A DNA stretch of 21,443 nucleotides from Candidatus Mcinerneyibacteriota bacterium (GCA_016937175.1 JAFGWL010000017.1:1-21443), one strand, 5' to 3'; positions 2,577-16,191 are shown, numbered from the stretch's first letter. The notes: a model not told the origin generated them from the letters alone. Made by a program: numbers and translations.

Positions 2577-3638
2577 TCAGGGGCGGGCCTTGACGATACT
2601 TTCCAGGACCGGCGCAACCTCTTTTTCATAGTTCGGAGAAATTACCCGGACACGGCCCTCCTCCCAGGCCGTTGCGTAATAGGAAACCCCCTCCTCCGTC
2701 TGAAAGATGATGATCCGCCCCGGCTGGCTGAACAGGTCCAGGTCGGGTTCTTTCGGACTCATCCTGAAGACCTGGACCGGGGCCCGATGCCATCCTCTCA
2801 TGAGCCTGGTTTTTTCCGTTAACTCACAGCCGGTGCCTCCCTCTGCTATATACGGAGGTTTGATTTTTTCAAAACGGGCGGTCTCACATTGATATTTGAC
2901 ATCCACAAGGATCCTGAACATCTCGGCTTCATGTTTTTGGGAAGAATAGTCCTGTAAAAAGAGATAGAGTAGCCCCAGGATGACAAGATGGAGAAAAACC
3001 CTTGAAAAGAAAAGACGGTACTCGCTCTGTCTCAAGAACAAAAACAACCTGGACAGGATAAAAATAGTAAAAAGCAGGAAGATGAGCCAGAGGAAGAGAT
3101 GGTTATAGATGTGCCAGCCCCCGGAGAGAGCCGCCTGCAGGAAGGTATAACCCCGGGACAGGACTTCTCTCAAAAGAGCCAGGCCGAAGAATGAGACAAT
3201 ACCGAACAAAACCCAGGCTACATAATCCTTTTTCTTCTCTTTGTGGGAAAGGGAGAGCCCCTTCTCTTCCAGACGCTCCATCAGCTCCGGAAGATGAGTA
3301 AACATATACGAGTGGAGCTTGAGGACTCTCTTTTTGCCTCCCGACTGATAAAAGATCCGATAAAACTCGCGCCCTCCCACCTGGTGGATGTATGTGACCC
3401 GGAAGATCTCTTTATAGGGGATCCTCACTGAAGCCCAGCCCTTTCTAACCAGGAGAAAACCCGAATAGACTTTTACAAAAGAGAGAATCTCACTTGTGAG
3501 ATGAACAGAAAAAAGAAGGGCCAGGCCGGCGGCGGGAAGGCCGCCGCCTAATCGGAAAGTCAAATAGAGGAGGATAATAAAAATAAGGATCTGGACACTG
3601 ATATAGGCAGGATGCTTCCGTGTTGTCCGCTCACGCAT
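2577..3638 (-). CDS. Five-helix membrane protein with PH-like insert; unknown function
   Basis: No named family is recognised. From ATG 3638 the protein is 353 aa, with predicted membrane helices at about 12-30, 33-54, 139-159, 180-202 and 211-229. Between helices 2 and 3 lies a soluble segment (60-127) whose strand-rich pattern (GFLLVRKGWASVRIPYKEI, then RIFYQSGGKKRVLKL, then a helix) resembles bacterial PH-like domains. The last ~120 residues form a soluble domain with two cysteines (251, 271); with five helices it would be on the opposite side of the membrane from the N-terminus, possibly periplasmic. ATG 3638 overlaps the korC stop by 8 bases (ATGCGTGA), so the two are translationally coupled. 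A TTG start at 3665 is open in frame but less likely. It is the last gene of the long operon. Confidence 0.75.
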   Translation of the reverse strand: MRERTTRKHPAYISVQILIFIILLYLTFRLGGGLPAAGLALLFSVHLTSEILSFVKVYSGFLLVRKGWASVRIPYKEIFRVTYIHQVGGREFYRIFYQSGGKKRVLKLHSYMFTHLPELMERLEEKGLSLSHKEKKKDYVAWVLFGIVSFFGLALLREVLSRGYTFLQAALSGGWHIYNHLFLWLIFLLFTIFILSRLFLFLRQSEYRLFFSRVFLHLVILGLLYLFLQDYSSQKHEAEMFRILVDVKYQCETARFEKIKPPYIAEGGTGCELTEKTRLMRGWHRAPVQVFRMSPKEPDLDLFSQPGRIIIFQTEEGVSYYATAWEEGRVRVISPNYEKEVAPVLESIVKARP

Positions 3639-4170
3639 GACGGCCCAGATCGAACCCGGCCTCAAAAGCAGCTATATTCTTCTCCTCGGTCCCTGCAGGG
3701 ACATTATGCCTGATTGCTTTTTTACAAGCATCGGGCGAGATCATCTCTGTCACAGCGGAAAAAAATCCCAAAGCGACGATATTGGCTGCCATGGGCCGGG
3801 CCATGATTCGGATGGACTCTTCCGTAAAGGGAGCAGAGGAGAGAGAAAAAGTCTCAGGAAGGTTTTCAACACTGACCTTTCCTTTGTCAATGACGACCAC
3901 AGCATTCTCATGGAGGTGCTCCAGATGTCTTTCAAGCCCGGACTGGCTCATAGCCACCAGGGCGTCGGCTTTCGTGATCTTCGGATAATCCACGGGCTCA
4001 TCGGAGATGATCACATATGATTCGGCTATGCCGCCCCGGGATTCGGGGCCATAATAGACGGTCTGTACGCTATGCTTTTTCTCATATAAAGAGGCTGCTT
4101 CAGCTGCGATTTTCCCGCAAAGGATCATTCCCTGTCCTCCGATGCCGCTAAAAATGATCTCATAGCGCAT
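3631..4170 (-). CDS. korC: 2-oxoacid:ferredoxin oxidoreductase, gamma subunit
   Basis: This 179-aa protein is the gamma subunit of the CoA-dependent 2-oxoacid:ferredoxin oxidoreductase family, the domain that contributes CoA handling at the interface with the alpha/beta core. The N-terminus carries the family hallmark FSGIGGQGM (residues 7-15), followed by QTVYYGPESRGG and the AxxxSxSGLE-like middle region. The open frame extends further upstream, but ATG 4170 is preceded by GGAGGAGG and begins exactly at the conserved first strand (MRYEIIFSG). The gap to the korB stop is one base. It completes a four-subunit set (D, A, B, C) in consecutive order. 2-oxoglutarate as substrate is inferred from the adjacent sucCD; other 2-oxoacids are possible. 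Confidence 0.88.
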   Translation of the reverse strand: MRYEIIFSGIGGQGMILCGKIAAEAASLYEKKHSVQTVYYGPESRGGIAESYVIISDEPVDYPKITKADALVAMSQSGLERHLEHLHENAVVVIDKGKVSVENLPETFSLSSAPFTEESIRIMARPMAANIVALGFFSAVTEMISPDACKKAIRHNVPAGTEEKNIAAFEAGFDLGRHA

Positions 4171-4171
4171 A

Positions 4172-4990
4172 TCAGTTTCCTCCTCCGGCTTTCTGCATGA
4201 CAAAGCTGTCATAGGCCTCCACATATTCAGGCCGGGTCTCCTGGCGGAAGATCCCTGTAATGATCTTTCCTTCCAGCTCTTCGGGCTCCATAGTCTCAGC
4301 CTTCACTTTGGATACCGCGCGGCTCCTGATCCATTCGATCATTTCGTAAGGGGATTTCATCTTGTTTCTCTTGCCGAAGCGCTCATGACAATTGCTCACA
4401 ACCTCGATGAGGGAAAATCCTTTATTCTTCAGGCCTTCATGGATGAACTTTTCCATCTCCCTGGGGTTAGCCACCGTTGAACGGGCGACAAAGGTCGCTC
4501 CCGATCCCATGGCCAACTGGACAATATCAAAAGAAGGGTCGATATGGCCGTAGGGAGCCGTTGAGGCAAAATAGCCCTGGGGTGTGGTGGGCGAGTACTG
4601 CCCTCCGGTCATCCCGTAAATATTATTATTGAAAAGAACCACCGTCAAATCGATGTTTCTCCGGGCCGCATGGATGAAATGGTTCCCCCCTATGGCAGTA
4701 GCATCCCCGTCTCCCGTAAAGACGATGACGTTCAGGTCCGGCCTGGACATCTTGATCCCTGTGGCATAGGGAATGGCCCGTCCGTGAAGAGTATGGAGTG
4801 AATTAAAGTCTACATAACCCGTAGCCCTGCTGGAACAACCGATCCCGGACACAGCCATTACCGAATCCTTGTCCCAACCCATCTTATCGATGGCCCGGAC
4901 CGCCCCTTTGAGGATGATCCCGTTTCCGCACCCGTAACACCAGATATGGGGCAGTTTATCCATTCTTAAGTATTTCGAGTAATCAAACAT
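4172..4990 (-). CDS. korB: 2-oxoacid:ferredoxin oxidoreductase, beta (TPP-binding) subunit
   Basis: This subunit binds thiamine diphosphate and an iron-sulfur cluster and carries out decarboxylation of the 2-oxoacid, or carboxylation in reverse. GDGD (93-96) begins the TPP/Mg motif, followed by NNNIYGMTGGQ (121-131), which is strongly diagnostic of the KorB/VorB group. CYGCG (18-22) together with Cys52 and a later Cys in VSNCHERFG provide the expected cluster-binding cysteines. Length (272 aa) is normal for short beta subunits. ATG 4990 overlaps the korA stop by one base (TGATG) and is preceded by AGGGGGTG. Partner subunits flank it on both sides. Confidence 0.92.
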   Translation of the reverse strand: MFDYSKYLRMDKLPHIWCYGCGNGIILKGAVRAIDKMGWDKDSVMAVSGIGCSSRATGYVDFNSLHTLHGRAIPYATGIKMSRPDLNVIVFTGDGDATAIGGNHFIHAARRNIDLTVVLFNNNIYGMTGGQYSPTTPQGYFASTAPYGHIDPSFDIVQLAMGSGATFVARSTVANPREMEKFIHEGLKNKGFSLIEVVSNCHERFGKRNKMKSPYEMIEWIRSRAVSKVKAETMEPEELEGKIITGIFRQETRPEYVEAYDSFVMQKAGGGN

Positions 4991-6108
4991 CAGAGCACCC
5001 CCTTGGCCGTCGATATGATTTCCCGGGGCGAGATCATTTCACTGTTGAGCTGATTCAGGGCGATGATCTTATCCCCGTCTATAAATTTCCGACATTCATC
5101 AGCCAGCTGTCCCTTGTTCATCTCGATGATCAGGACTTTCTTTGCTTTCCGGGATAACTCGGCCAGGCGCTTCTCCGGGAAGGGCCAGACTGTGACCGGC
5201 CTGAAGACTCCTGCGGATATACCCTCCCTGTTAAGTTCTTTGCAAGCCATTTTCGCGCTCCTGGCCTGGGTTCCTACAGAGACCAGAAGGATATCGGGAT
5301 CAACGGTTCCGGTCTCTTCCCATTTACCGATGACGTCCTCGTGCTCCTCTATTTTACGGAACATACGGTCGATACTTCTTTGAATATTGTCCCCGCTCAC
5401 ATCAGGGAAGCCGGTCTCGTCATGAAAAAGTCCTGTCACATGAAAACGGAGTCCTTCTCCGTAATTGGCAGTCTGAGGGATATCCTCTTTCATGGCGTAG
5501 GGCGCATACCTGGAGGGGTCGCCTTCGATTTTCCGGCGGGGGATGATCTCGATATCATCACGGATCTCCACCGATTCGTTCATCTTCCCCAGGATCTCAT
5601 CCATCAGAAAGACGACAGGCTGTCTGAAGCGTTCTGCAAGGTTAAATGCCCGGATGATCTCGTAATAGGTCTCGGGGACAGATTCCGGATAGAGTGCGAT
5701 GACAGGATGGTCACCGTGTGTGCCCCAACGTGCCTGCATGATGTCTCCCTGAGAAGGCCCTGTAGGATGTCCCGTCGACGGGCCGCCCCTCATGACATTG
5801 ACCACCACAAAGGGGACCTCGGCCATGATCCCATACCCCAGGGCCTCCTGCATAAGAGAAAAACCCGGGCCTGATGTCGCTGTCATGCTTTTTGTTCCGG
5901 CCAGAGACCCGCCGATGATAGAAGCGATGGAAGCGATCTCATCTTCCATTTGAATAAAACGCCCTCCCACACGGGGCAATAATCTGGCACACTGTTCCGC
6001 GATCTCTGAAGACGGGGTAATCGGATATCCTCCGAAAAACCGAAGGCCTGCCCGGACAGCTCCCAGGGCACAAGCTTCGTTTCCCTGTAAAAATTTGATC
6101 TCTCCCAT
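4990..6108 (-). CDS. korA: 2-oxoacid:ferredoxin oxidoreductase, alpha subunit
   Basis: The alpha subunit (372 aa) supplies the pyrimidine-side TPP domain and the transketolase-C-like domain. Family segments are clear: QGNEACALGAVRAG near residue 9, YPITPSSEIAE, QMEDEIASIASIIG, TATSGPGFSLMQEALGYG, and RGGPSTGHPTGPSQGDIMQARWGTHGD split over the middle of domain I. There is no fused gamma domain, consistent with the separate korC. ATG 6108 has a GGGGGAG ribosome site and starts 12 bases after the korD stop. The RGGPSTGxPT pattern and the neighbouring sucCD favour 2-oxoglutarate (KGOR), linking 2-oxoglutarate and succinyl-CoA through ferredoxin. A branched-chain 2-oxoacid role is the main alternative. 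Confidence 0.92.
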   Translation of the reverse strand: MGEIKFLQGNEACALGAVRAGLRFFGGYPITPSSEIAEQCARLLPRVGGRFIQMEDEIASIASIIGGSLAGTKSMTATSGPGFSLMQEALGYGIMAEVPFVVVNVMRGGPSTGHPTGPSQGDIMQARWGTHGDHPVIALYPESVPETYYEIIRAFNLAERFRQPVVFLMDEILGKMNESVEIRDDIEIIPRRKIEGDPSRYAPYAMKEDIPQTANYGEGLRFHVTGLFHDETGFPDVSGDNIQRSIDRMFRKIEEHEDVIGKWEETGTVDPDILLVSVGTQARSAKMACKELNREGISAGVFRPVTVWPFPEKRLAELSRKAKKVLIIEMNKGQLADECRKFIDGDKIIALNQLNSEMISPREIISTAKGVL

Positions 6109-6120
6109 GATCTCCCCCTC

Positions 6121-6327
6121 TTACTTTTTTTCTTCAATTTCTATAGCGAAATCAGGACAGTAATTTTCACATTGCAGACATCCGATACACTTGGCCACAT
6201 CCTTTACTGAGGCCCGAAACTCATGATCAGGGCCGATGGCCTTTGTCGGGCAATAACTGTAACATAGTCCGCAGGCTTTACAGAAATCCAGATTGATCTT
6301 GATCAGAAATTCTTTTTTGCCAGCCAC
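6121..6327 (-). CDS. korD: 2x[4Fe-4S] ferredoxin-type delta subunit
   Basis: This 68-aa protein carries two complete CxxCxxCxxxC motifs (Cys16/19/22/26 and Cys47/50/53/57), each followed by Pro, typical of low-potential bacterial-type ferredoxins. Placed first in korDABC, it is the electron-transfer subunit that passes electrons between the TPP core and soluble ferredoxin. The start codon is GTG at 6327, preceded by AAGGAGG at good spacing. No other in-frame start precedes the first motif. A promoter with a perfect -10 lies in the 71-base gap to sucD, so korDABC can be transcribed apart from the upstream genes. Confidence 0.93.
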   Translation of the reverse strand: MAGKKEFLIKINLDFCKACGLCYSYCPTKAIGPDHEFRASVKDVAKCIGCLQCENYCPDFAIEIEEKK

Positions 6328-6363: not shown

Positions 6364-6391
6364 ATTATAATCAGCGAAGGTAATAAGTAAA
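6364..6391 (-). promoter_or_regulatory. Predicted promoter for korDABC
   Basis: A perfect TATAAT (6369-6364, minus strand) lies 16 bases downstream of TTTACT (6391-6386), a 4/6 match to the -35 consensus. It falls in the only sizeable gap (71 bases) between dnaB and the end of the operon, and would give a leader of about 30 bases before korD. Confidence 0.55.
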
Positions 6392-6398
6392 GGACATT

Positions 6399-7265
6399 TT
6401 AGAAAAAAGCTTTGACAGCCGCGGCAATGTCCACCGGTAGGTCCACGACGACAGCTCCGGCTTCCCGAAAGAGGGCTACTTTGCTTTCGGCGGTCCCTTT
6501 TCCGGCATGGATGATCGCACCGGCATGCCCCATCCTTTTTCCTTTGGGGGCAGTTTTCCCTGCAATAAAGACGGCCACGGGTTTACTGAAGTGCTTTTTG
6601 ATATAGTCAGCGGCCATCTCTTCATCACTTCCCCCGATCTCACCGATCAGAACCACTGCTTTTGTTTCGGAATCTTCTTTAAAGGCCTCCAGGCAATCGA
6701 CGAACTTCGTCCCGATAATGGGGTCCCCTCCGATCCCGATGACCGTCGACTGGCCGAGTCCGGCACTCGACAGGTTGTGAACGACTTCGTAGGTCAGGGT
6801 CCCGCTGCGGGAGATCACACCCACAGGGCCGCGAGAAAAGATATGCCCCGGCATGATCCCGATCTTCGTCTCCCCGGGTGTGATGATACCGGGGCAGTTA
6901 GGGCCGAAAAGGCGGGCTCCTTTAGATCGGACATAATGAGCCACGGTCATCATGTCAGTGACCGGGATGCCTTCTGTGATACAGACGATGTTTTTGATTC
7001 CCGCTTCCACTGCCTCGATGACAGACCCGGCTGCAAAGGCCGGAGGAATATAAATAATGGAAGTATCCGCCCCTGTCCTGGAAACAGCTTCAGCAACGGT
7101 ATTGAAGACAGGGACCCCCTCGACCTCCAGGCCCCCTTTGAAGGGGGTGACACCGCCTACTATCTTAGTCCCGTATTCCAGCATCTTCCCGGTGTGAAAG
7201 GACCCGTCCCGGCCGGTGATCCCCTGTACAATGACTTTTGTCTCTCTGTTCACAAAAATAGCCAT
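6399..7265 (-). CDS. sucD: Succinyl-CoA synthetase, alpha subunit
   Basis: The alpha subunit binds CoA and carries the phosphorylated histidine for interconversion of succinyl-CoA and succinate with nucleotide triphosphate formation. It is 288 aa, the usual size. Visible motifs are [21 protein letters not shown] (split at 18-38) for CoA binding, [12 protein letters not shown] (121-132), and [16 protein letters not shown] with the phospho-histidine at 247 (His246 in E. coli). ATG 7265 overlaps the sucC stop by one base (TGATG), with GGGAGGG upstream. With sucC it joins the Kor complex to fumarase in a TCA-cycle branch. Identification is secure. Confidence 0.97.
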
Positions 7266-8434
7266 CAGTTTCCCTCCCTTATCCCGTTGCGGACCTCTTT
7301 CAGCCTGGCGACGGCCTCTTTAAGGTCGGTAAAGGCCTCATAACCGATCTCTTCCAAAATACGGCGCCCCTCTTTTTCATTTGTCCCGGTGAGCCGCATG
7401 ACCATGGGGATCTCCAGGGAACGCCGGGAAAGGGCTTTTTTAAACCCGTTGGCCACATCATCACACCTGGTGATCCCGCCGAAGACATTGATAAAGATCA
7501 CTTTGACTCTGGGGTTCTTCATAATGATATCAAGAGCTTCGATCACCTTCTGGGGATTGGAGGAGCCGCCGATATCCAGAAAGTTGGCAGGCTCCATCCC
7601 ATTGTGCTTGATCATATCCATGGTGGCCATGGCCAGCCCGGCTCCGTTCACCATACAGGCCACATCGCCATCCAATTTGACGAAACTGAGGCCTTTTTCC
7701 CTGGCTTCCACCTCCTGCTGCTCATCATCGGGGACTTTTCGGATCTCCACCAGGTCTCCGTGCCGAAAAAGGGCATTATCGTCGATGATCATCTTAGCAT
7801 CAAGGGCCAGAAAAGTATCGTCCGGGAGAAGGACCAGGGGGTTGATCTCCACCATGGCTGCGTCCCTCTCCATATAGAGTCTGTAGATATTTCTCACAAG
7901 TTCGGTGAAAGCCCTGTACCCCTCTTTGCCCCGGCCCAGGGAGAGATAGAGCTCTCTGATATGATGCTCCTGTATCCCTGTCAGGGGATTTACATGGACT
8001 TTTCTGATGCTGTCGGTTTTTTTTACAGCGATCTCTTCGATCTCGACACCCCCTTCAGCAGAAAGCATCATAACAGGAGTCTGTGTCTCCCTGTCGTAAG
8101 TCACACTGAAATAGAGTTCTTTGAGGAAGGAGAGCTGCTCTTCGATGAGAAGGGCATTGACCATCTCTCCCTGTCCTGCTGTCTGGTAGGTCTCCAGGGG
8201 TTTGCCGAGGAGGTCTTCTGCAGCAGCGGCCGCTTCGCGCAGCGTTCCCGCCAGCCGGACTCCTCCGGCCTTCCCCCGCCCTCCTGCGAGGATCTGCGCC
8301 TTGACTACGCATCTTCCCCCCAGCTGCTGGACGACTTTGTTCAGCTCCGACAAGCCTTTCACCACAAACCCTTCGGGAATGGGGACATGATACTCCTTCA
8401 ACAGATGTTTTGCCTGATATTCCAAAAGCTTCAT
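7265..8434 (-). CDS. sucC: Succinyl-CoA synthetase, beta subunit
   Basis: This 389-aa ATP-grasp subunit binds the nucleotide and succinate. It begins with the canonical [15 protein letters not shown] and shows [17 protein letters not shown] (nucleotide-binding loop), VEINPLV (metal ligands), [13 protein letters not shown] and [16 protein letters not shown] (the succinate/phosphate power-helix region). Length matches bacterial SucC. ATG 8434 overlaps the fumarase beta stop by four bases (ATGA), and GGGAGG lies within the end of that gene, so expression is coupled. Whether ADP or GDP is preferred cannot be read with confidence. Confidence 0.97.
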
Positions 8435-8970
8435 CTTGTGTCCTCCCTCATAGTATAGATATCTCCTCCCTGTGTATCCAATCCGACAAAACAGGGAAAT
8501 CCGTTCAATTCCACGCTATAGACCGCTTCCGGCCCAAGGTCCTCAAAGGCGACCAGTTCTATTTTTTTCACGAACCGTGATAAGAGGGCCGCAGCTCCCC
8601 CAACAGCCACAAGATAAACGGCTCCCCGGCGCAGGAAAGCCTCTTTGACGGCCGGGCTTCTTCTCCCCTTCCCCAGTGCCCCCAGGATCCCCTGTTCCAG
8701 GAGAAGCGGGGTGAAGGGATCCATACGGCTGCTGGTCGTAGGGCCGATAGCGCCGCAATCCAGCCCCGGAGGAGCCGGGGCGGGGCCTGCATAAAACAGG
8801 AGTGCACCCTTCAGGGGAAACGGGAGAGGCTTTCCATTTCGGATCATAGAGGAGAGGCGCTCGTGGGCAGCATCCCGGGCTGTATAGACCACTCCCGAAA
8901 GAGCAAGGGATGTCCCCGCGCTCAGGGATAAAAGCTTTTGGTCGTCTTTTCCCAGCTGAATGGAGATCAC
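8431..8970 (-). CDS. fumB: Class I fumarate hydratase, beta (C-terminal) subunit
   Basis: This 179-aa protein matches the C-terminal domain of class I (iron-sulfur) fumarases and the beta subunit of tartrate dehydratases. GPTTSSRMD (76-84) is the signature substrate-binding segment, followed by GKG and the hydrophobic VYLVAVGGAAALL and a late FEDLGPEAV segment. The start is GTG at 8970, overlapping the alpha-subunit stop by four bases (GTGA). It forms the active enzyme with the adjacent alpha subunit. The sucCD/kor context favours fumarate-malate over L-tartrate. The symbol follows two-gene class I fumarase usage and does not imply the E. coli single-chain FumB. Confidence 0.92.
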   Translation of the reverse strand: MISIQLGKDDQKLLSLSAGTSLALSGVVYTARDAAHERLSSMIRNGKPLPFPLKGALLFYAGPAPAPPGLDCGAIGPTTSSRMDPFTPLLLEQGILGALGKGRRSPAVKEAFLRRGAVYLVAVGGAAALLSRFVKKIELVAFEDLGPEAVYSVELNGFPCFVGLDTQGGDIYTMREDTR

Positions 8971-9815
8971 AGTACCACCCCTGCGTACCGGGCAGAATGA
9001 CAGTTGATATTCACAGCCACGGGAAAACTGGCTATATGACAGGGAGCCTCTTCGATGAAGGTATCCAGGACAGTCACCCCCTGTCCGAATCCCTGGATCC
9101 CTACGCCGGACTTGAGGTTCACTATATGGGTTATCTCCTCTTCCAGATCAGCCAGCGCCGCATCGGGATGGCGTTCTCCGGGACGGCGGAAGAGAGCCTT
9201 TTTAGCCAGCCAGGGCGCTGTATCGAAACTTCCCCCCAGCCCGACGCCCAAAAAGAGAGGGGGACAGGGATCCGGCCCCGCGGCCTGAACCGTTTCCAGG
9301 ACAAATTGAAGGACGTCCTCTTTTCCGGCATGCGGTGTCAGCATGGCCATGCGGCTTTTATTCTCACTGCCGCCTCCCTTGGCCATAAATCTGATCTCCA
9401 ATTCATCTCCTTCCACGATCTCATAATGGATCACTGCCGGAGTATTCGAGCCCGTATTGACTCGCCTGAGCGGGCTCTCCACAACAGATTTTCTCAGATA
9501 GAGGGAAGTATACATGGCGGCAGTGGCCTCATTCAGGGCCCCTTCCAATGTCCCTCCCTCTATGACCACAGATGAACCGGCTCGGACATAGAAAAACGCC
9601 AGCCCGGTATCCTGGCAAAGGGGGACTTTCCCGTCTCCTGCGGCTTCTATATTCTTTTTGATCAGTTCCAGGGCTTCTCTCCCGGGGCCCTCCCCTCCGG
9701 GATCAGCCTCTTCAAGGCTTTTGCGCACTCCTTCGGGAAGATAAAAAGAAGCTTCCCGAATCAGGTTCCCGGCAGCCCGGACAACTGCTTTGTAGGGTAT
9801 ACTGCGACAGAACAT
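8967..9815 (-). CDS. fumA: Class I fumarate hydratase, alpha (N-terminal, Fe-S) subunit
   Basis: This 282-aa subunit carries the labile [4Fe-4S] cluster for hydration of fumarate. All three expected cluster cysteines are in conserved settings: PLCQDTGLA, CPPLFLGVGLGG and VNINCHSARYA. RVNTGSNTPAVIHYEIV and KGGGSENKS are further family segments. ATG 9815 overlaps the dnaB stop by one base (TGATG), and its ribosome site GGGGAGG is embedded in the last codons of dnaB. A TTG three bases further up (9818) is also in frame. Oxygen-sensitive class I enzymes suit an anaerobe. Tartrate dehydratase alpha is the alternative family member. Confidence 0.93.
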   Translation of the reverse strand: MFCRSIPYKAVVRAAGNLIREASFYLPEGVRKSLEEADPGGEGPGREALELIKKNIEAAGDGKVPLCQDTGLAFFYVRAGSSVVIEGGTLEGALNEATAAMYTSLYLRKSVVESPLRRVNTGSNTPAVIHYEIVEGDELEIRFMAKGGGSENKSRMAMLTPHAGKEDVLQFVLETVQAAGPDPCPPLFLGVGLGGSFDTAPWLAKKALFRRPGERHPDAALADLEEEITHIVNLKSGVGIQGFGQGVTVLDTFIEEAPCHIASFPVAVNINCHSARYAGVVL

Positions 9816-11242
9816 CAAGCCTCCCCGGGGTAGTCATCCCGCCCGGAATAATTCTCAAATCTTCCGAATTCCTTAAGGAAGGTCAGTTTTTTGGTTCCGA
9901 TGGGCCCGTTTCTGTTTTTGGCCACATTGATCTCCACCGATTTGTCTTCTCCTCCATCTTCACGGTCCTGATAGTAGTCCTCCCGGTAGAGAAACATGAC
10001 TATGTCCGCATCCTGCTCGATGGATCCGGACTCCCTCAGATCCGAGAGCATGGGCCGTTTCCTGTCTCTTTTTTCCACGCTCCGGGAAAGCTGAGAAAGG
10101 GCGATGACCGGGACTTTGAACTCTTTAGCGATCTCCTTCAGATGCCGGGAGATCATGGTGATCTTGGCATTCATGCTCTCATAATTCTCCACAGTATTCA
10201 TAAGCTGCAAGTAGTCCACGATGACCAGATGATACTCCTTCTGGGTAAAGAGGCGGCGGAGCTTGGCTTTCAGCTGGAGAGGGGTAAGCCCCGCAGAGTC
10301 ATCCACGTAGATGGGGAGCCGGGAAAGCTGAGACCCGGTGGCATGAAGCTTTTTGAGATCATCTTTTGTGATATACCCTTTCATGGCCTCATGGCCCCGG
10401 ATCTTCGAGTGCATAAAGATGAACCGCCGGGCGATCTCCTCTTCTGACATCTCCAGGCTGAAGACGACGACGCCTTTGTCGCCGGTTTCGGCGACATTCA
10501 GCGCAACATTTAGGGCAAAAGCCGTCTTACCCATCCCCGGGCGTCCCGCTACAATGATCAGCTGTCCGGGTTTAAACCCGCCGGTGATCTCATCCACGAG
10601 GAGATAGCCGGTCTCGATATCACTTTTGGTAATCTTTTTATCTTTAATATCTTCGATATAACTGATCTGATGAGCGACCAGCTCTTCCAGGGTGGAAAAC
10701 GACTTCTTGATCTTCCGCTCCTGCACGATATCAAATATACGGGCTTCGGCTGTCTCCAGGATCCTGTCCACATCATAAGGCAGATTCTCGATATCATTGG
10801 AGGTAGAGACCAAAGCGCTTCTCAGGCGGCGGAGGATATATTTATGACGGATAATATCCATATAGCCGTCATAATTGATGTAAGCGGAACTCTTTTCCCA
10901 TAAAGCGCTGAGGTATTCAAACCCCCCGGCCTCTTCCAGAAGAGACCCTTTCTGATTCAGTGGAAGTCCCTCGGGTGTATTTTTTCTTTCGCTGAGGTAA
11001 TTCTTCAGGACAACAGGATCGATCCTTGAGTTTACATCTCTGCGGAAAAGATCCAGAATAGCATAATAGATCAACTGATGGGAACGTGAATAGAAGATAT
11101 CGATATTCTCCCCCAACTCGTCCAGGACATGGGGGATGATGGTATTATCCAGCAGAAGAGCGCCCAGAAGGGCGCTCTCTGCATCAAGGTCACAGATCTC
11201 TTGAAATACAGTCTTATCAGAGAGCCGTGGGTTGCGGTCCAT
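9815..11242 (-). CDS. dnaB: Replicative DNA helicase DnaB
   Basis: This 475-aa hexameric helicase unwinds DNA ahead of the replisome. The N-terminal primase-interacting domain starts at about residue 17 (DLDAESALLGALL). The RecA-like ATPase core has Walker A GRPGMGKT (233-240), the EMSEEEIARRF segment, Walker B LVIVDYLQLM (339-348) and the DNA-binding/arginine-finger region LSQLSRSVEKR with SDLRESGSIEQDAD. No intein is inserted. ATG 11242 lies 15 bases after the rplI stop, with GGGAG inside a small possible hairpin. Its stop overlaps the fumarase alpha start. The rpsF-ssb-rpsR-rplI-dnaB order is common in bacteria; the continuation into TCA genes is not. Confidence 0.97.
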   Translation of the reverse strand: MDRNPRLSDKTVFQEICDLDAESALLGALLLDNTIIPHVLDELGENIDIFYSRSHQLIYYAILDLFRRDVNSRIDPVVLKNYLSERKNTPEGLPLNQKGSLLEEAGGFEYLSALWEKSSAYINYDGYMDIIRHKYILRRLRSALVSTSNDIENLPYDVDRILETAEARIFDIVQERKIKKSFSTLEELVAHQISYIEDIKDKKITKSDIETGYLLVDEITGGFKPGQLIIVAGRPGMGKTAFALNVALNVAETGDKGVVVFSLEMSEEEIARRFIFMHSKIRGHEAMKGYITKDDLKKLHATGSQLSRLPIYVDDSAGLTPLQLKAKLRRLFTQKEYHLVIVDYLQLMNTVENYESMNAKITMISRHLKEIAKEFKVPVIALSQLSRSVEKRDRKRPMLSDLRESGSIEQDADIVMFLYREDYYQDREDGGEDKSVEINVAKNRNGPIGTKKLTFLKEFGRFENYSGRDDYPGEA

Positions 11243-11245
11243 GAA

Positions 11246-11258
11246 ACCGGCTCCCGGT
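11246..11258 (-). promoter_or_regulatory. Small hairpin over the dnaB ribosome binding site
   Basis: ACCGG-GAG-CCGGT (5-bp stem, 3-base loop) covers the GGGAG that would serve dnaB. A competing pairing, GAAACC (11269-11264) with GGTTTC (11248-11243), would leave GGGAG in a loop. Stems are short, so a role in tuning dnaB translation is only a possibility. Confidence 0.3.
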
Positions 11259-11710
11259 CACTGGGTTTCTTCCGCTTCCACAACGACTTTGAAGGGAGCT
11301 TCAAAACCCTGGGCGAATTTCAGAAGAATATCATACTCTCCGATTTTATTGATATGGTCTGTGATGACCAGGTACTTTTTATCGACATCGATATTCTGTT
11401 CCTTCAAAGCATCAATGATCTCGGCAGGAGTGACAGAACCGAAAAGCTTCCCGTTTTCCCCGGCCTTTTTTGTGAAGGCGAGGGTGATACCCTTCACCTG
11501 TTCCAGAAGAGCCTGATACTGCTGTTCTTTCCGGGCGACCTTTCCCTTCTGCTGTTTCATCACATGATCCACGGCTTTTTTGGTCTTCTCGGTATAGGGG
11601 ACAGCCATTCCCTGGGGAACCAGGAAATTCCGGGCATATCCGTCACGGACTTTGACGATCTGTCCCACTTCTCCCAATTTCGGAACATTCACTTTCAATA
11701 CGACTTTCAT
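11258..11710 (-). CDS. rplI: 50S ribosomal protein bL9
   Basis: bL9 is a two-domain protein of the large subunit near the L1 stalk base; at 150 aa this copy is typical. The N-terminal domain is clear (MKVVLKVNVPKLGEVGQIV, then KVRDGYARNFLVPQG), followed by the long Lys-rich connecting helix and a C-terminal domain with VKGITLAFTKKAGENGKLFGSVT. The in-frame GTG at 11719 would add three residues, but ATG 11710 aligns with the family start and has AGGCGGTGA at suitable spacing. It lies 12 bases after rpsR. Confidence 0.97.
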   Translation of the reverse strand: MKVVLKVNVPKLGEVGQIVKVRDGYARNFLVPQGMAVPYTEKTKKAVDHVMKQQKGKVARKEQQYQALLEQVKGITLAFTKKAGENGKLFGSVTPAEIIDALKEQNIDVDKKYLVITDHINKIGEYDILLKFAQGFEAPFKVVVEAEETQ

Positions 11711-11722
11711 CTCGATCACCGC

Positions 11723-11992
11723 CTATGACTTTCTGCTGCTTCTGTAATACTCTACCTTAAAGGGCAGCAATGCGATCATACGGGCCCGTTTGATCTCACC
11801 TGTGACCAGCCTCTGATGTTTGGCGCACAAGCCGGACCGTGTCCTGGATGAGATCTTTCCCCGCTCGGTAATAAAATTTTTCAAGATATCAACATTTTTA
11901 TAGGTAATGTCCTTCTCTTTAATTTCACCCGAGCATAATTTGCAGTACTTTTTCTTTCTGAAAAAACGTCTTCCACTACTACGCTCAGCCAT
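11723..11992 (-). CDS. rpsR: 30S ribosomal protein bS18, zinc-binding (C+) type
   Basis: bS18 (89 aa) pairs with bS6 on the 30S platform. The conserved core [22 protein letters not shown] then [21 protein letters not shown] is present. Unlike the E. coli protein, it keeps four potential zinc ligands: Cys17, Cys20, Cys56 and His59 (CKLC and CAKH). Many bacteria have cysteine-free copies used under zinc limitation, so this copy is the zinc-dependent form. Its partner rpsF is two genes upstream, and both products may repress translation through the rpsF leader. GAGGAGG precedes the ATG. Confidence 0.97.
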
Positions 11993-12012
11993 TTTTCCTC
12001 CTCTGACTTTGT

Positions 12013-12468
12013 TTAAAAGGGGATATCATCTTCGCCGCTCTCTTCAAAGAATTCCCCTTCGTTGTTCTCCACTGTCTCCTCCCCTTTGCGGCGGATCTCT
12101 TCTTCAGGACGGTCGTCGGATGAACCGGTTTTCCGGGATCCGCCGCCCTCGCTGCTGCTTCCCGAGGAGAGGAACTGGACGTTTTGAGCCACGATCTCCA
12201 CGACGTTGCGTTTCTCCCCGTTCACTTCATAATTGCGGCTCTGCAGACGTCCTTCTACAAGAACGGGGCTTCCCTTGGATAGATATTTCTGGCAATTCTC
12301 CGCCTGGCGCTCCCAGACGACGACCCGGAAAAACGAAGCTTCCTGGGAAAAATAGTCGTTAACGGCTACAGTGAGCGTCGTGACAGCTTTTCCCGATCCG
12401 GTATACCGGATCTCAGGATCCCGGGTGATATTCCCTGCGATAAAGACTTTATTCACAGAAACAGCCAT
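12013..12468 (-). CDS. ssb: Single-stranded DNA-binding protein
   Basis: SSB (151 aa) coats single-stranded DNA and recruits replication and repair proteins. The OB-fold spans about residues 1-105: [19 protein letters not shown] near the N-terminus, then [21 protein letters not shown] and [18 protein letters not shown] Gly/Ser/Glu-rich disordered linker follows. The acidic tip DDIPF at the extreme C-terminus is the conserved partner-binding peptide. Its position between rpsF and rpsR is the classic arrangement. GAAGGAAG precedes ATG 12468, which is one base from the rpsF stop. Confidence 0.97.
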
Positions 12469-12469
12469 A

Positions 12470-12757
12470 TCAATCTTCCTTCTTTACGAACATGTGACGT
12501 AAAAAGTTTTCATCAATACGCATAATCCTGGCCATCTCGTCTAAGATATCGACATCGGCCATGAATTCCATATAGGTGTAATGCGCTTCTGATTCTTTGT
12601 CGATCAAATAGGCCAGCCTCTTCTTGCCCCATTCATCCTTTTTCAGGATCTTACCTTCTTTTCCGGTAACGATCCCTTCCAGTTTCTGAATGAGAGAATC
12701 CCTCTGTTCGCTGTCCAATGAAGAACGTGTCAGAAAAACACCTTCATAGATTCTCAT
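12470..12757 (-). CDS. rpsF: 30S ribosomal protein bS6
   Basis: bS6 (95 aa) starts MRIYEGVFLTRSSLDSEQ and shows the conserved WGKKRLAYLIDKESEAHYTYMEF strand-helix region (split at about 42-65). It binds bS18 and 16S rRNA in the central domain. There is no glutamate-rich C-terminal tail of the enterobacterial type. The Shine-Dalgarno AGGGAGG lies inside a foldable leader (see the 12765-12808 entry), suggesting feedback by the S6:S18 pair. It starts 63 bases after the lipoprotein gene. Confidence 0.97.
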   Translation of the reverse strand: MRIYEGVFLTRSSLDSEQRDSLIQKLEGIVTGKEGKILKKDEWGKKRLAYLIDKESEAHYTYMEFMADVDILDEMARIMRIDENFLRHMFVKKED

Positions 12758-12764
12758 CTCTACA

Positions 12765-12808
12765 CCTCCCTTCGGCTTAAAGTCCTGCGCACCGCGCAGA
12801 ACAGGGAG
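12765..12808 (-). promoter_or_regulatory. Probable S6:S18-binding autoregulatory leader of rpsF
   Basis: On the minus strand CTCCCT (12808-12803) can pair with AGGGAG (12771-12766), extendable outward by G-U pairs. Inside, GTTCTGCGC (12802-12794) pairs with GCGCAGGAC (12790-12782) around a GGT loop: 9 bp with one wobble. The 3' side of the internal loop is TTTAAGCCGA, containing an unpaired CCG (12775-12773), directly followed by the rpsF Shine-Dalgarno, which forms the 3' strand of the outer stem. A hairpin with a 3'-side CCG bulge that takes in the ribosome site is the layout described for S6:S18 complex-binding rpsF leaders. The match is to layout; no alignment was run. Confidence 0.62.
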
Positions 12809-12820
12809 ACAGACGCCTCA

Positions 12821-13123
12821 TTACTTCCGCCGGGCGAACTGTCTGTTTATTTCATCAATCTTCCTGATAAAGGTCTCTTTGTCGCGGTCCAGAAGCCTTT
12901 TCCCGGTTTCCTGGTAACTCTCCATGGTATAGCCGGCTTCTTTCAGGATCCTGTCCACGCCCTCTTTGACGACACCTTCCTCTTTCTCTATATTGTCATA
13001 GGTAAAGCGGACGATCTTCTCATAGGTTGTAAAATATCGTTCTGTCTCCGCGGCAATCCCCTCTCCTCCGGCACATGCAGCCAGAATCAGGGCAGCCATC
13101 ATGAAAACTCCCAATGTCTTCAT
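12821..13123 (-). CDS. Small lipoprotein, unknown function
   Basis: The 100-aa product starts with a lipoprotein signal peptide: MKTLGVFMMAALILAAC, with lipobox LAAC and the acylated cysteine at 17. The residue after Cys is Ala and then Gly-Gly, with no Asp at +2, so outer-membrane sorting is plausible if Lol rules apply. The mature part (~83 aa) is charged and helical (IEKEEGVVKEGVDRILKEAGY, then KRLLDRDKETFIRKI), predicted to be one or two amphipathic helices, possibly a coiled coil. Family unrecognised. It has a strong promoter and a GGAGGTG ribosome site, and lies at the head of the rpsF operon with no terminator before rpsF. Confidence 0.82.
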   Translation of the reverse strand: MKTLGVFMMAALILAACAGGEGIAAETERYFTTYEKIVRFTYDNIEKEEGVVKEGVDRILKEAGYTMESYQETGKRLLDRDKETFIRKIDEINRQFARRK

Positions 13124-13140: not shown

Positions 13141-13168
13141 ATGATAGTTAAAAAACGGAGCCTGTCAA
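13141..13168 (-). promoter_or_regulatory. Strong predicted promoter for the lipoprotein-rpsF operon
   Basis: On the minus strand perfect TTGACA (13168-13163) is followed after 16 bases by TATCAT (13146-13141). The predicted start near 13134 coincides with the Shine-Dalgarno GGAGGTG (13134-13128), giving a leader of only about 11 bases. It is back-to-back with the rpsT promoter, with 21 bases between the two -35 boxes. Confidence 0.65.
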
Positions 13169-13548: not shown

Positions 13549-14613
13549 TTATTTTTTCGGAAGATACTTGATTCCCAGAACTGCTTCGGCCGGACGGTCC
13601 ATCTTGCTGGCGTCTTTCACCACGTCTTCACGGACCTCCCTGAACTTATCAAGAGCAGGCGCTTCTCCCGCTTCCTGCCTGGCCAATTCAAAGATATATT
13701 CGAGGATCTCGGAAAGTCCTTTGAGAACCGCCTCGGGTGTCTCCGCTGTCTCATCCCAGTCAAGCTGATCAGAATTAAAACGCTCCGTCACTTTGGAAAA
13801 GACGACCCCTTCCATATCAGGGTAAATCATCTTCAACTCCTCGAATTTATCGGTGATCTCTTTCATGGGGACCTGGATGATGGGCGAATCCAGAAGAAGT
13901 GAATCCAGATAGCGGTTAATGGCATCGATGATAAGCCCCGCGGCACTGTTCACGATCTCATATTTTCTTTTGCGCTTCCTCTTGAAGATCGAGGTGAGCA
14001 TGCTTTTGTTTTTTTCCACATCTACGCCGCTCTTTTTAAGCTTTTCTTCCATCCGACGCTGATGTTCCTCTTCGGTCATCCTGATGTCCACAAGATTGGC
14101 TTTTATCAGAGATGCCAGGGTCTTACTGGCTTCCACATTGTCAAGACTGCTTTTGGCGATGACTTCATCCACCGTCCGTTTCCCGTTGATCAGCGAAAGG
14201 ACTTTCAGGTCTTCGTTATTCAATTTGATTGTATCAATATCCCTCTGTCCTTCATCGATAAGAGTCAAAATAGCATTCCCGTCGGGGATCGTCTTCTTGA
14301 CTTCGGAGAGTTCATCATTTCTCCTGGCTGCTTCCAGGATAAGGTTCTGCCAGTCAATCATCATATTCTCACGGAGAGGCGCTTTGTCGTTCTCGAAGAC
14401 AAACCGGCCATTGCTCCAGCCAAAACAGTGATAGACCGCCTCTTCGGCTTCGAACTTGCCTCCTTTGGCAGCGACGATCATTCCGTTTTTAAAATAGATC
14501 TCCCCCTGTTCGGCATTATGCTCCAGCTTAAGACAGCCTGTCCGTTGGCCAAGCCCCAGAAGCTGGAAAAGGTCGGCGATGGAAAAATCCGCTAATGTCC
14601 CCTGTAACGACAT
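13549..14613 (-). CDS. DUF4388 (PATAN) domain protein of the mgl operon
   Basis: The N-terminal ~100 residues match the DUF4388/PATAN family: SLQGTLADFSIADLFQLLGL (2-21), then RTGCLKLEHNAEQGEIYFKNG (24-44) and YHCFGWSNGRFVFE (61-74). This domain occurs in bacterial signalling proteins linked to motility and polarity. Residues ~110-180 (LKVLSLINGKRTVDEVIAKSSL, then LASLIKANLV) read like the winged-helix segment often found after PATAN. A very basic patch KRKRKRK (211-217) leads into an unassigned helical C-terminal domain. Total 354 aa, cytoplasmic. It starts 12 bases after the second mglB-like gene, so it is probably an effector or scaffold for the MglA/MglB switch. Confidence 0.85.
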   Translation of the reverse strand: MSLQGTLADFSIADLFQLLGLGQRTGCLKLEHNAEQGEIYFKNGMIVAAKGGKFEAEEAVYHCFGWSNGRFVFENDKAPLRENMMIDWQNLILEAARRNDELSEVKKTIPDGNAILTLIDEGQRDIDTIKLNNEDLKVLSLINGKRTVDEVIAKSSLDNVEASKTLASLIKANLVDIRMTEEEHQRRMEEKLKKSGVDVEKNKSMLTSIFKRKRKRKYEIVNSAAGLIIDAINRYLDSLLLDSPIIQVPMKEITDKFEELKMIYPDMEGVVFSKVTERFNSDQLDWDETAETPEAVLKGLSEILEYIFELARQEAGEAPALDKFREVREDVVKDASKMDRPAEAVLGIKYLPKK

Positions 14614-14625
14614 GAACCCCCCTTC

Positions 14626-15090
14626 CTACATATCTTTCAAGAGATTGTTGATCTCGTCACGCAGGGTATTGTTCACTTTTTTGATGGGCTTTTCTTCGAC
14701 CCCGGGGATCTGGCTGACGATATCATTGATCTTCTGAATCGTCTTCTCCGTCTCTTCTCTCAGGATACCCAATACTGTCTTTTGCCCGAATATGGTAATG
14801 AGCAGCAACTTATTGCCTACGCGGTTGATATCAATATTTTCCGAAAGACCTTTATGGAAAAGGACGGTGAACTGCTTCTCGCTGAGCATCCTGGCCAGAG
14901 CGACTGTCGCGGCGAAATGACTCGCCGACAAGGAAGCCAGCGCCACAGCGTTGATATTTCCGGTATATCCGGCAACGGCGATGAGCTCTCCGTTGATATC
15001 AACCAGGAATACACTTTTCGAGGAAGTCTTCCAGATGAGTTCCGAAAGGACTTCTTCTAATTGTTCCACCTGTTCGTTTCCGATTTTCAT
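14626..15090 (-). CDS. Second MglB-like Roadblock/LC7 protein
   Basis: This 154-aa Roadblock/LC7 protein is a paralogue of the first gene of the operon. It shares the pattern VFLVDINGELIAVAG (27-41), ALASLSASHFAAT (50-62), FTVLFHKGLSENIDI (74-88) and LGILREETEKTI (107-118). Both paralogues end in a short acidic-hydrophobic peptide (EINNLLKDM here, EIDSLFKD in the other), corresponding to the C-terminal helix that contacts MglA in Myxococcus. It starts two bases after the mglA stop. It may form a heterodimer with MglB or act as a second regulator of the same GTPase; which one cannot be read from sequence. Confidence 0.88.
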   Translation of the reverse strand: MKIGNEQVEQLEEVLSELIWKTSSKSVFLVDINGELIAVAGYTGNINAVALASLSASHFAATVALARMLSEKQFTVLFHKGLSENIDINRVGNKLLLITIFGQKTVLGILREETEKTIQKINDIVSQIPGVEEKPIKKVNNTLRDEINNLLKDM

Positions 15091-15092
15091 TT

Positions 15093-15680
15093 TTATCGAC
15101 CCTCACTTATTGCTTTTAGAACCAGTTTGCTTATTGCTTTCAACGTATCAAAGACACCGATCCCCTCTACGGCGATGGCTTCGAAAGAGAGGTACCCTTT
15201 GGGGTTCAGTTGCTGTTCCAGCTCTTCTGAACTCATGACATTGGCCAGGTCCATCTTGTTGTACTGCATGACAAAGGGGATGGTCTCGGGATCAAGGTTC
15301 TGGCTGATAAGGTTGACCCTGAGGTTTTCAAGGCTTTCAATATTCTGTTCCAGCCGTTCCCGCTGGGCATCGGCGACAAAGACAACTCCGTCGGCCCCTT
15401 TCAGAATGAGCCTCCGGCTGGCGTCATAGTGGACTTGCCCCGGGACTGTATAGAGGTGAAAACGTGTCTTGAAGCCCTGGACCTGTCCCAGATCCAGGGG
15501 AAGAAAGTCAAAAAAGAGTGTCCGGTCCGCTTCCGTGGCCAGAGAGACCAGTTTGCCTCGGGCCGAAGGATCGATCTGTTTATAGACATATTTGATATTT
15601 GTCGTCTTCCCGCCGAGGCCGGGGCCGTAGTAGACGATCTTGCAGTTTATTTCCCGTGAAGCATAATTGATTAATGACAT
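15093..15680 (-). CDS. mglA: MglA-type small Ras-like GTPase
   Basis: MglA is the bacterial Ras-like GTPase that marks the leading pole in Myxococcus and directs motility machinery. This 195-aa copy has the P-loop GPGLGGKTT (19-27), Arg53 in [12 protein letters not shown], Thr78 in TVPGQ (78-82) where Ras has Asp, Gln82, and NKMD (141-144). By recall these positions match Myxococcus MglA residue for residue (Arg53, Thr78, Gln82), so it should be a GAP-responsive active GTPase. There is no lipidation motif. The start [20 protein letters not shown] is the canonical one. The gene is flanked on both sides by MglB-like genes, upstream by 13 bases and downstream by two. Confidence 0.95.
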
Positions 15681-15693
15681 GCATCCTCCTCAC

Positions 15694-16191
15694 TCAGTCT
15701 TTAAATAAACTGTCGATCTCATTCTCGATGGCCTGAGTAAAAGATTCGTCAAGTTTTTTGATCTGGCCGTCTCTCTTGCTCCGCTCTACCATCTCCTTCA
15801 GGACATGGGCCAGATGCTCGACACTTTTCTTGACCTCAAGCCGGACCAGGCCCAGGGAAGTCTTGACCACTCGAAAAACAACGACCATGATAATCGACCC
15901 GGCGACTATGGAGATATGAATACTGTCTTTGACCCCTTCATGGAAGAGGACTGAAAATTCCGTCTCCCCGATAAGCTTGGCCAATTCACTGGTCGCGGCA
16001 AAATTCCCGGCGGAGAGCGAAGCGAAGGCTGTGGAGTCGAACTGTTCCATATTACCACGCATGGTGATAAGCTGCCCGCTTTTATCCACTAAAAAGACAC
16101 ATTCTGATTTGGAATTCTTCATTAATTCGTCAAGGATGAGATTTATTTTTTCGAAGCTGTCTTCATACATGATCAGTCCATCTTGCAACAT
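15694..16191 (-). CDS. mglB: MglB, Roadblock/LC7 GTPase-activating partner of MglA
   Basis: MglB dimers stimulate GTP hydrolysis by MglA and mark the lagging pole. This 165-aa protein follows recalled Myxococcus MglB closely: MYEDSFEKINLILDEL (8-23), CVFLVDKSGQLI (31-42), FASLSAGNFAATSELAKLIGE (56-76), LFHEGVKDSIHISIV (82-96), LGLVRLEVKKS (113-123) and a final DSLFKD. The start is ATG 16191, with GGGAGG six bases upstream; an in-frame ATG at 16170 has no such site. It is the first gene of the operon, as mglB is in Myxococcus mglBA, and is transcribed from a good promoter divergent to the PHP gene. Confidence 0.93.
   Translation of the reverse strand: MLQDGLIMYEDSFEKINLILDELMKNSKSECVFLVDKSGQLITMRGNMEQFDSTAFASLSAGNFAATSELAKLIGETEFSVLFHEGVKDSIHISIVAGSIIMVVVFRVVKTSLGLVRLEVKKSVEHLAHVLKEMVERSKRDGQIKKLDESFTQAIENEIDSLFKD

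Follow-up and report, generated by a model that had tools for sequence, protein, structure and literature searches.

A probable lineage-specific extension of the rpsF-ssb-rpsR-rplI-dnaB operon into fumarase and succinyl-CoA ligase genes in a Candidatus Mcinerneyibacteriota genome

The bacterial rpsF-priB/ssb-rpsR-rplI(-dnaB) operon has been described in detail (Babina et al. 2015, PMC4647458; review PMC10931766), and the published S6:S18 leaders have a conserved CCG in the bulge that separates stem from hairpin, with its C pair contacted by S18 and with the ribosome site held inside the structure (PMC4647458; PMC10931766). In Campylobacterota the oorDABC genes, which are relevant to the metabolic half of our locus, are cj0535-cj0538 (PMC4178425). 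The window analysed here, a single stretch of 21,443 nt from a Candidatus Mcinerneyibacteriota genome (G000; 1.88 Mb, 98.7% complete), has the same ribosomal-protein gene core. The operons in PMC4647458 and PMC10931766 end at rpsR or rplI, whereas in the window the run goes on, on the same strand, through dnaB and four metabolic genes with overlapping ends. Like the published one, its predicted leader has a bulged C pair and encloses the ribosome site; unlike the known rpsF_leader, it has no Rfam match. A full-text search of partial coverage returned no description of a dnaB-fumarase fusion, in agreement with a preliminary description of this DNA that knew of no such standard operon. What is known here is the operon core; what is new is its fusion to fumarase and succinyl-CoA ligase genes, which looks like an unusual case of ordinary operon extension.

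Gene order and junctions

The cluster rpsF-ssb-rpsR-rplI-dnaB-fumA-fumB-sucC-sucD lies entirely on the minus strand, from 12757 down to 6399, and all nine genes scored above the cut-offs of their NCBIfam models. The first five are rpsF (ribosomal protein S6, 12470..12757, TIGR00166), ssb (single-stranded DNA-binding protein, 12013..12468, TIGR00621), rpsR (ribosomal protein S18, 11723..11992, TIGR00165), rplI (ribosomal protein L9, 11258..11719, TIGR00158) and dnaB (replicative helicase, 9815..11242, TIGR00665). By equivalog matches and coordinates, rpsF, ssb, rpsR and rplI stand in the order and on the single strand that define an rpsF-rpsR operon, and both relatives described below are alike in this. 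There follow fumA (8967..9815, NF004885, PF05681) and fumB (8431..8970, GTG start, TIGR00723, PF05683), the alpha and beta subunits of a class I (Fe-S) fumarase, identified as the two-subunit type by the presence of PF05681 and PF05683 in adjacent genes, and then sucC (succinyl-CoA ligase beta, 7265..8434, NF001913) and sucD (succinyl-CoA ligase alpha, 6399..7265, TIGR01019).

The junctions proved to be as the preliminary description had read them. The dnaB stop and fumA start share one nucleotide (TGATG), and the fumA ribosome site, GGGGAGG, lies within the last dnaB codons, ending 4 nt ahead of the fumA ATG; the remaining joins are overlaps of 4 nt at fumA/fumB (GTGA), 4 nt at fumB/sucC (ATGA) and 1 nt at sucC/sucD (TGATG). 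A longer form of fumA beginning with TTG at 9818 was rejected, because the aligned place is ATG in both relatives.

The chain is longer than had been stated, since the genes of a 2-oxoacid:ferredoxin oxidoreductase, korDABC, begin 71 nt past sucD, also on the minus strand: korD (4Fe-4S ferredoxin-like delta subunit, 6121..6327; a Fer4 protein with OorD as its best NCBIfam match, below cut-off), korA (alpha, 4990..6108, NF006412 above cut-off), korB (beta, 4172..4990, NF007207 at 364.1 bits against a cut-off of 364) and korC (gamma, 3631..4170, NF006323 as best match, below cut-off, with PF01558 on a longer ORF, 3631-4224). Past korC, and overlapping its end, is a 362-aa ORF (2577-3665, minus strand) with no Pfam or NCBIfam match; it keeps its position though fast diverging (50% and 26% in the relatives). 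At the other end, a small ORF of 100 aa (12821..13123, minus strand), with a start that looks lipoprotein-like by eye, precedes rpsF. A Pfam search assigned it no family, and it has a homologue in the same position in both relatives (60% and 31%).

Expression signals and a putative leader RNA

Comparison was made within a sample of 98 genomes, only two of which are relatives of G000: G001, of the same genus (the congener, locus L064), and G002, of the same order (locus L062; 88% complete). All others are related to it at the domain level only. The congener's record is filed under Bacillota at NCBI, a filing that may be wrong. As a separate observation on this lineage, nadB at G000:C8 (L179 10136-11597) has as neighbours, by eye, genes for an LptE-like lipoprotein and a HolA-like protein, an arrangement that suggests an outer membrane.

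Promoter-like sites were called as consensus matches only. In all three genomes the best such site on the coding strand precedes the small gene, which is thereby the first gene past it: TTGACA-16-TATCAT in the window (13141..13168, minus strand, 11/12 consensus), with TTGACA-16-TATGAT in the congener and TTGACA-16-TATTAT in the order-level relative at the same place and score. A second site, TTTACT-16-TATAAT (6364..6391, minus strand, 10/12), occupies the gap between sucD and korD and is likewise kept in place at 10/12 in the congener (TTTACT-16-TATAAT) and the order-level relative (TTTACA-16-TATACT). In the latter, which is AT-rich, promoter-like matches were fewer than chance expectation. 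A consensus scan of the coding strand over the last 600 nt of the window's dnaB gave neither promoter-like nor terminator-like matches; just before this stretch is a weak terminator-like match at 10436-10422. This result, together with the presence of the join in both relatives, supports the earlier claim that the cluster goes on past dnaB. A strong hairpin, GAGAGCGCCCTTCTGGGCGCTC, occurs in the first dnaB codons of both congeners (L064 8637-8660; by eye in the window at 11158-11179, minus strand). The L064 copy is stable and has a T-containing tail; if the stretch were untranslated, it could lower read-through.

In all three genomes, the stretch that separates the small gene from rpsF can fold into a hairpin resembling the S6:S18 leader (12766..12808, minus strand, in the window, as called by fold and covariation). 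Its outer stem (CUCCCU/AGGGAG) holds the rpsF ribosome site, and an inner hairpin and a bulge with GCCGA complete it; each genome's version has the outer stem with the ribosome site, the inner hairpin and, in the bulge, a pair of neighbouring C residues. The bulge has CCG in two of the three sequences and CC in all three, the order-level relative reading GCCA in place of GCCG and having only four pairs in its outer stem. As a single-sequence fold the leader is not exceptional by itself (z −1.5). Over the three sequences, its 15-pair structure has 95.6% of cells paired and 4 pairs changed on both sides; 4 of 500 shuffles did as well, and slid versions were much worse. No ribosomal leader was matched in Rfam at any threshold used, whether the full window was scanned or, permissively, the leader region. 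We consider this element a probable autoregulatory RNA of the S6:S18 type.

Taken together, the locus is probably the standard rpsF-ssb-rpsR-rplI-dnaB operon as extended in this lineage, with a coupled transcript, an S6:S18-type leader and a catabolic segment at its end, and a single transcript from the rpsF-side promoter through sucD is likely. Indirect support for it comes from the overlaps, from the empty consensus scan over the end of dnaB and from the conservation described below. Such a transcript would start near 13141-13168 and carry the small gene, the leader, rpsF, ssb, rpsR, rplI, dnaB, fumA, fumB, sucC and sucD, while korDABC may be supplied partly by read-through and partly from its own promoter at 6364-6391. 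The stop/start overlaps of the fumarase and succinyl-CoA ligase genes would couple the translation of each gene to that of the preceding one. With more S6 and S18 present than rRNA can take up, the unbound S6:S18 pair would close the leader and rpsF translation would fall, and this repression might reach the downstream genes through coupling and mRNA decay.

Conservation, and how ordinary the parts are

The run from the small gene to korC and the following ORF is collinear in all three genomes. DnaB is 88% identical to that of the window in the congener and 59% in the order-level relative, and FumA 75% and 50%, respectively. At the dnaB/fumA join, G000 and the congener have a 1-nt overlap and the order-level relative a 2-nt gap, and the fumA ribosome site is inside dnaB in 3 of 3 genomes. 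The preliminary description had named absence of the junction from all relatives as a finding that would count against it; the junction is present in both relatives available. A FumA search of genome contigs (80 loci, some with short flanks) found a dnaB match in the flank only at L064.

In a synteny control comparing ~626 kb of G000 with 217 kb of the order-level relative (69 reciprocal best pairs), the longest collinear block was that of the window. Besides it there were one block of roughly twelve ORFs and two short blocks, and the remaining orthologues were scattered. The window block extends past the operon and beyond a divergent rpsT, taking in two roadblock-type genes, a gene for a GTPase and a DUF4388 gene. 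Conservation is thus wider than the proposed transcript, and part of the operon's conservation may reflect slow rearrangement. With three genomes only, the conservation may also trace to one evolutionary event. The upstream genes are themselves a conserved block: directly upstream of the operon (13549-16191, minus strand; L062 3236-5903) lie a roadblock-type gene, a gene for an MglA/Arf-like GTPase that is 83% identical in the order-level relative, a second roadblock-type gene and the DUF4388 gene.

These results bear on an alternative in which the arrangement is a fixed neighbourhood with no regulatory meaning: the fumarase, succinyl-CoA ligase and kor genes landed behind dnaB in an ancestor, the stretch rearranges slowly, and internal promoters in dnaB or rplI drive the genes. 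Synteny reaching beyond the operon in the distant relative is what this account expects, a tight gene after dnaB is generally common (see below), and the congener has a weak promoter-like site directly before fumA (TTGAAA-17-GATTAT, 9/12, L064 9958-9986). That site, however, was not found in the window, where the aligned sequence is GACTAC; the tight join and the ribosome site within dnaB persist at 50-59% protein identity; and orthologues elsewhere in the sampled genomes are mostly scattered, bar operon-like blocks. On balance we regard a fixed neighbourhood as unlikely, and retain the coupled operon extension as the better account.

The individual junctions are unremarkable. Of 67 genomes from other phyla, searched mechanically, 49 have a co-directional ORF no more than 100 nt behind dnaB, and in 35 of the 67 the distance is at most 30 nt. 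A crude gene call of G000 gave overlaps of 1-8 nt, mostly 4 nt, in ~21% of 365 adjacent pairs on the same strand. Neither a gene lying close behind dnaB nor a short overlap is thus out of the ordinary, and it is this particular gene set that is unusual; short overlaps were rejected as a sign of a special link, being common in G000. The non-random feature is the gene order and its conservation, not the overlaps. Among the matches listed, the families found behind dnaB in other phyla were alanine racemase (alr, 8 cases), MlaE (6), RadA (4) and BamA (2), with single cases of enolase, PurA, LeuS, RelA/SpoT and fumarase. The proposal that the sequence ties helicase synthesis to fumarase and succinyl-CoA synthetase is therefore not supported, given how common tight genes after dnaB are in other phyla and short overlaps are in G000.

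The single fumarase case was followed further. In G076, of another phylum, a single-chain class I fumarase (511 aa) lies 6 nt behind dnaB on the same strand, and this adjacency is kept in G123 and G124 (L244, L245 and L246 for the three genomes, all of one family); six genomes from two other families of the same phylum have the same fumarase without the adjacency. The dnaB of G076 is outside any rpsF cluster, being preceded by a uracil-DNA-glycosylase-like gene (by eye) and not rplI, and sucCD and kor were unmatched near the pair. We give the second adjacency little weight, as coincidence or a weak hint. A specific functional link, in which the DnaB level must match the enzymes of fumarate and succinyl-CoA, could draw on a full-length class I fumarase recurring directly behind dnaB in an unrelated phylum, in G076 without rpsF genes in front, but the fumarases are built differently (from two subunits here, as one chain of 511 aa there), the same fumarase lacks this neighbour in other families of the phylum, and the gene behind dnaB varies widely across the 67 genomes (alr, mlaE, radA, eno, purA, leuS and others), which makes such a link very improbable.

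The metabolic half and its counterparts elsewhere

The earlier label of TCA-cycle genes is misleading. PF00285 (citrate synthase/ATP-citrate lyase; Re-type citrate synthase lies outside this search) was not found in any of the 3 genomes, with detection in 13 of 14 controls, as was PF00180 (isocitrate/isopropylmalate dehydrogenase), with detection in 14 of 14; the absences in the order-level relative are weaker because its genome is 88% complete. With neither family found in any of the three genomes, neither a complete oxidative nor a complete reductive cycle was found. A single succinate dehydrogenase/fumarate reductase-like flavoprotein with a C-terminal domain was seen in G000, which NCBIfam identifies as L-aspartate oxidase, and a wider search of that genome found no other full-length FAD_binding_2 member. 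A reductive-TCA carbon-fixation cassette was rejected because no PF00285 protein was found. The failure to find PF00180 in the three genomes also implies that LeuB is lacking, a hint at amino-acid auxotrophy and a peptide-fermenting life.

Kor and SucCD convert 2-oxoglutarate to succinate with ATP, and for this reason our best guess, on gene content and a predicted Kor substrate, is a glutamate-fermenting role for the Kor-SucCD half. Kor specificity is tentatively read from a beta subunit just at the cut-off of a 2-oxoglutarate model, an alpha subunit at a generic 2-oxoacid model, and gamma and delta subunits below cut-offs. Proteins of the glutamate dehydrogenase type occur in 3 of 3 genomes (outside the operon in G000), and sucC is single-copy in each. 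The genes would then form a catabolic segment and not a cycle, in which glutamate yields 2-oxoglutarate (glutamate dehydrogenase), then succinyl-CoA (Kor), then succinate and ATP (SucCD), with fumarase handling fumarate and malate beside it.

The main rival to this role, for the metabolic half only, is a reductive horseshoe running from malate through fumarate and succinate to 2-oxoglutarate for glutamate. Fumarase, SucCD and Kor are fitting enzymes for it, and with no member of the citrate synthase or isocitrate dehydrogenase families found, another source of 2-oxoglutarate is needed. The path has, however, a break in G000: apart from L-aspartate oxidase, the searches there gave no flavoprotein of the fumarate reductase kind, which leaves fumarate and succinate without a dedicated connecting enzyme. 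We consider the horseshoe unlikely, and the glutamate-fermenting role remains our preferred reading.

Under the operon extension that we favour, the cell would gain by having its energy-yielding enzymes rise and fall with growth. A stronger form, that the output of both the helicase and a fermentative energy pathway is set by an S6:S18 feedback switch through one coupled transcript, such that ribosome assembly throttles ATP-yielding glutamate catabolism, is speculative, and we put it forward with considerable doubt. Should the transcript exist, a single promoter and feedback leader would serve replication, the making of ribosomes and one energy-yielding step, and the coupling of catabolism to growth rate could be tested in one natural operon. 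Otherwise, the gain is annotation of a poorly known lineage: an operon, its likely promoters and leader, and a pointer to a metabolism without a TCA cycle.

Three other arrangements resemble parts of this locus. The genomes G076, G123 and G124 are like the window in that dnaB is followed at once, on the same strand, by a class I fumarase gene, and differ in that their fumarase is a single chain, as against the two subunits here. An archaeal ribosomal-protein cluster contains enolase and is similar in bringing a central-carbon enzyme into a ribosomal-protein operon, with other genes, another domain of life and other regulation. In Campylobacterota, oorDABC presumably adjoins mdh-sucCD; the sucCD-oorDABC clusters are like the window in their order of sucC, sucD and korD-A-B-C, whereas in the window fumarase replaces mdh in front and the set is joined to a ribosomal-protein/helicase operon.
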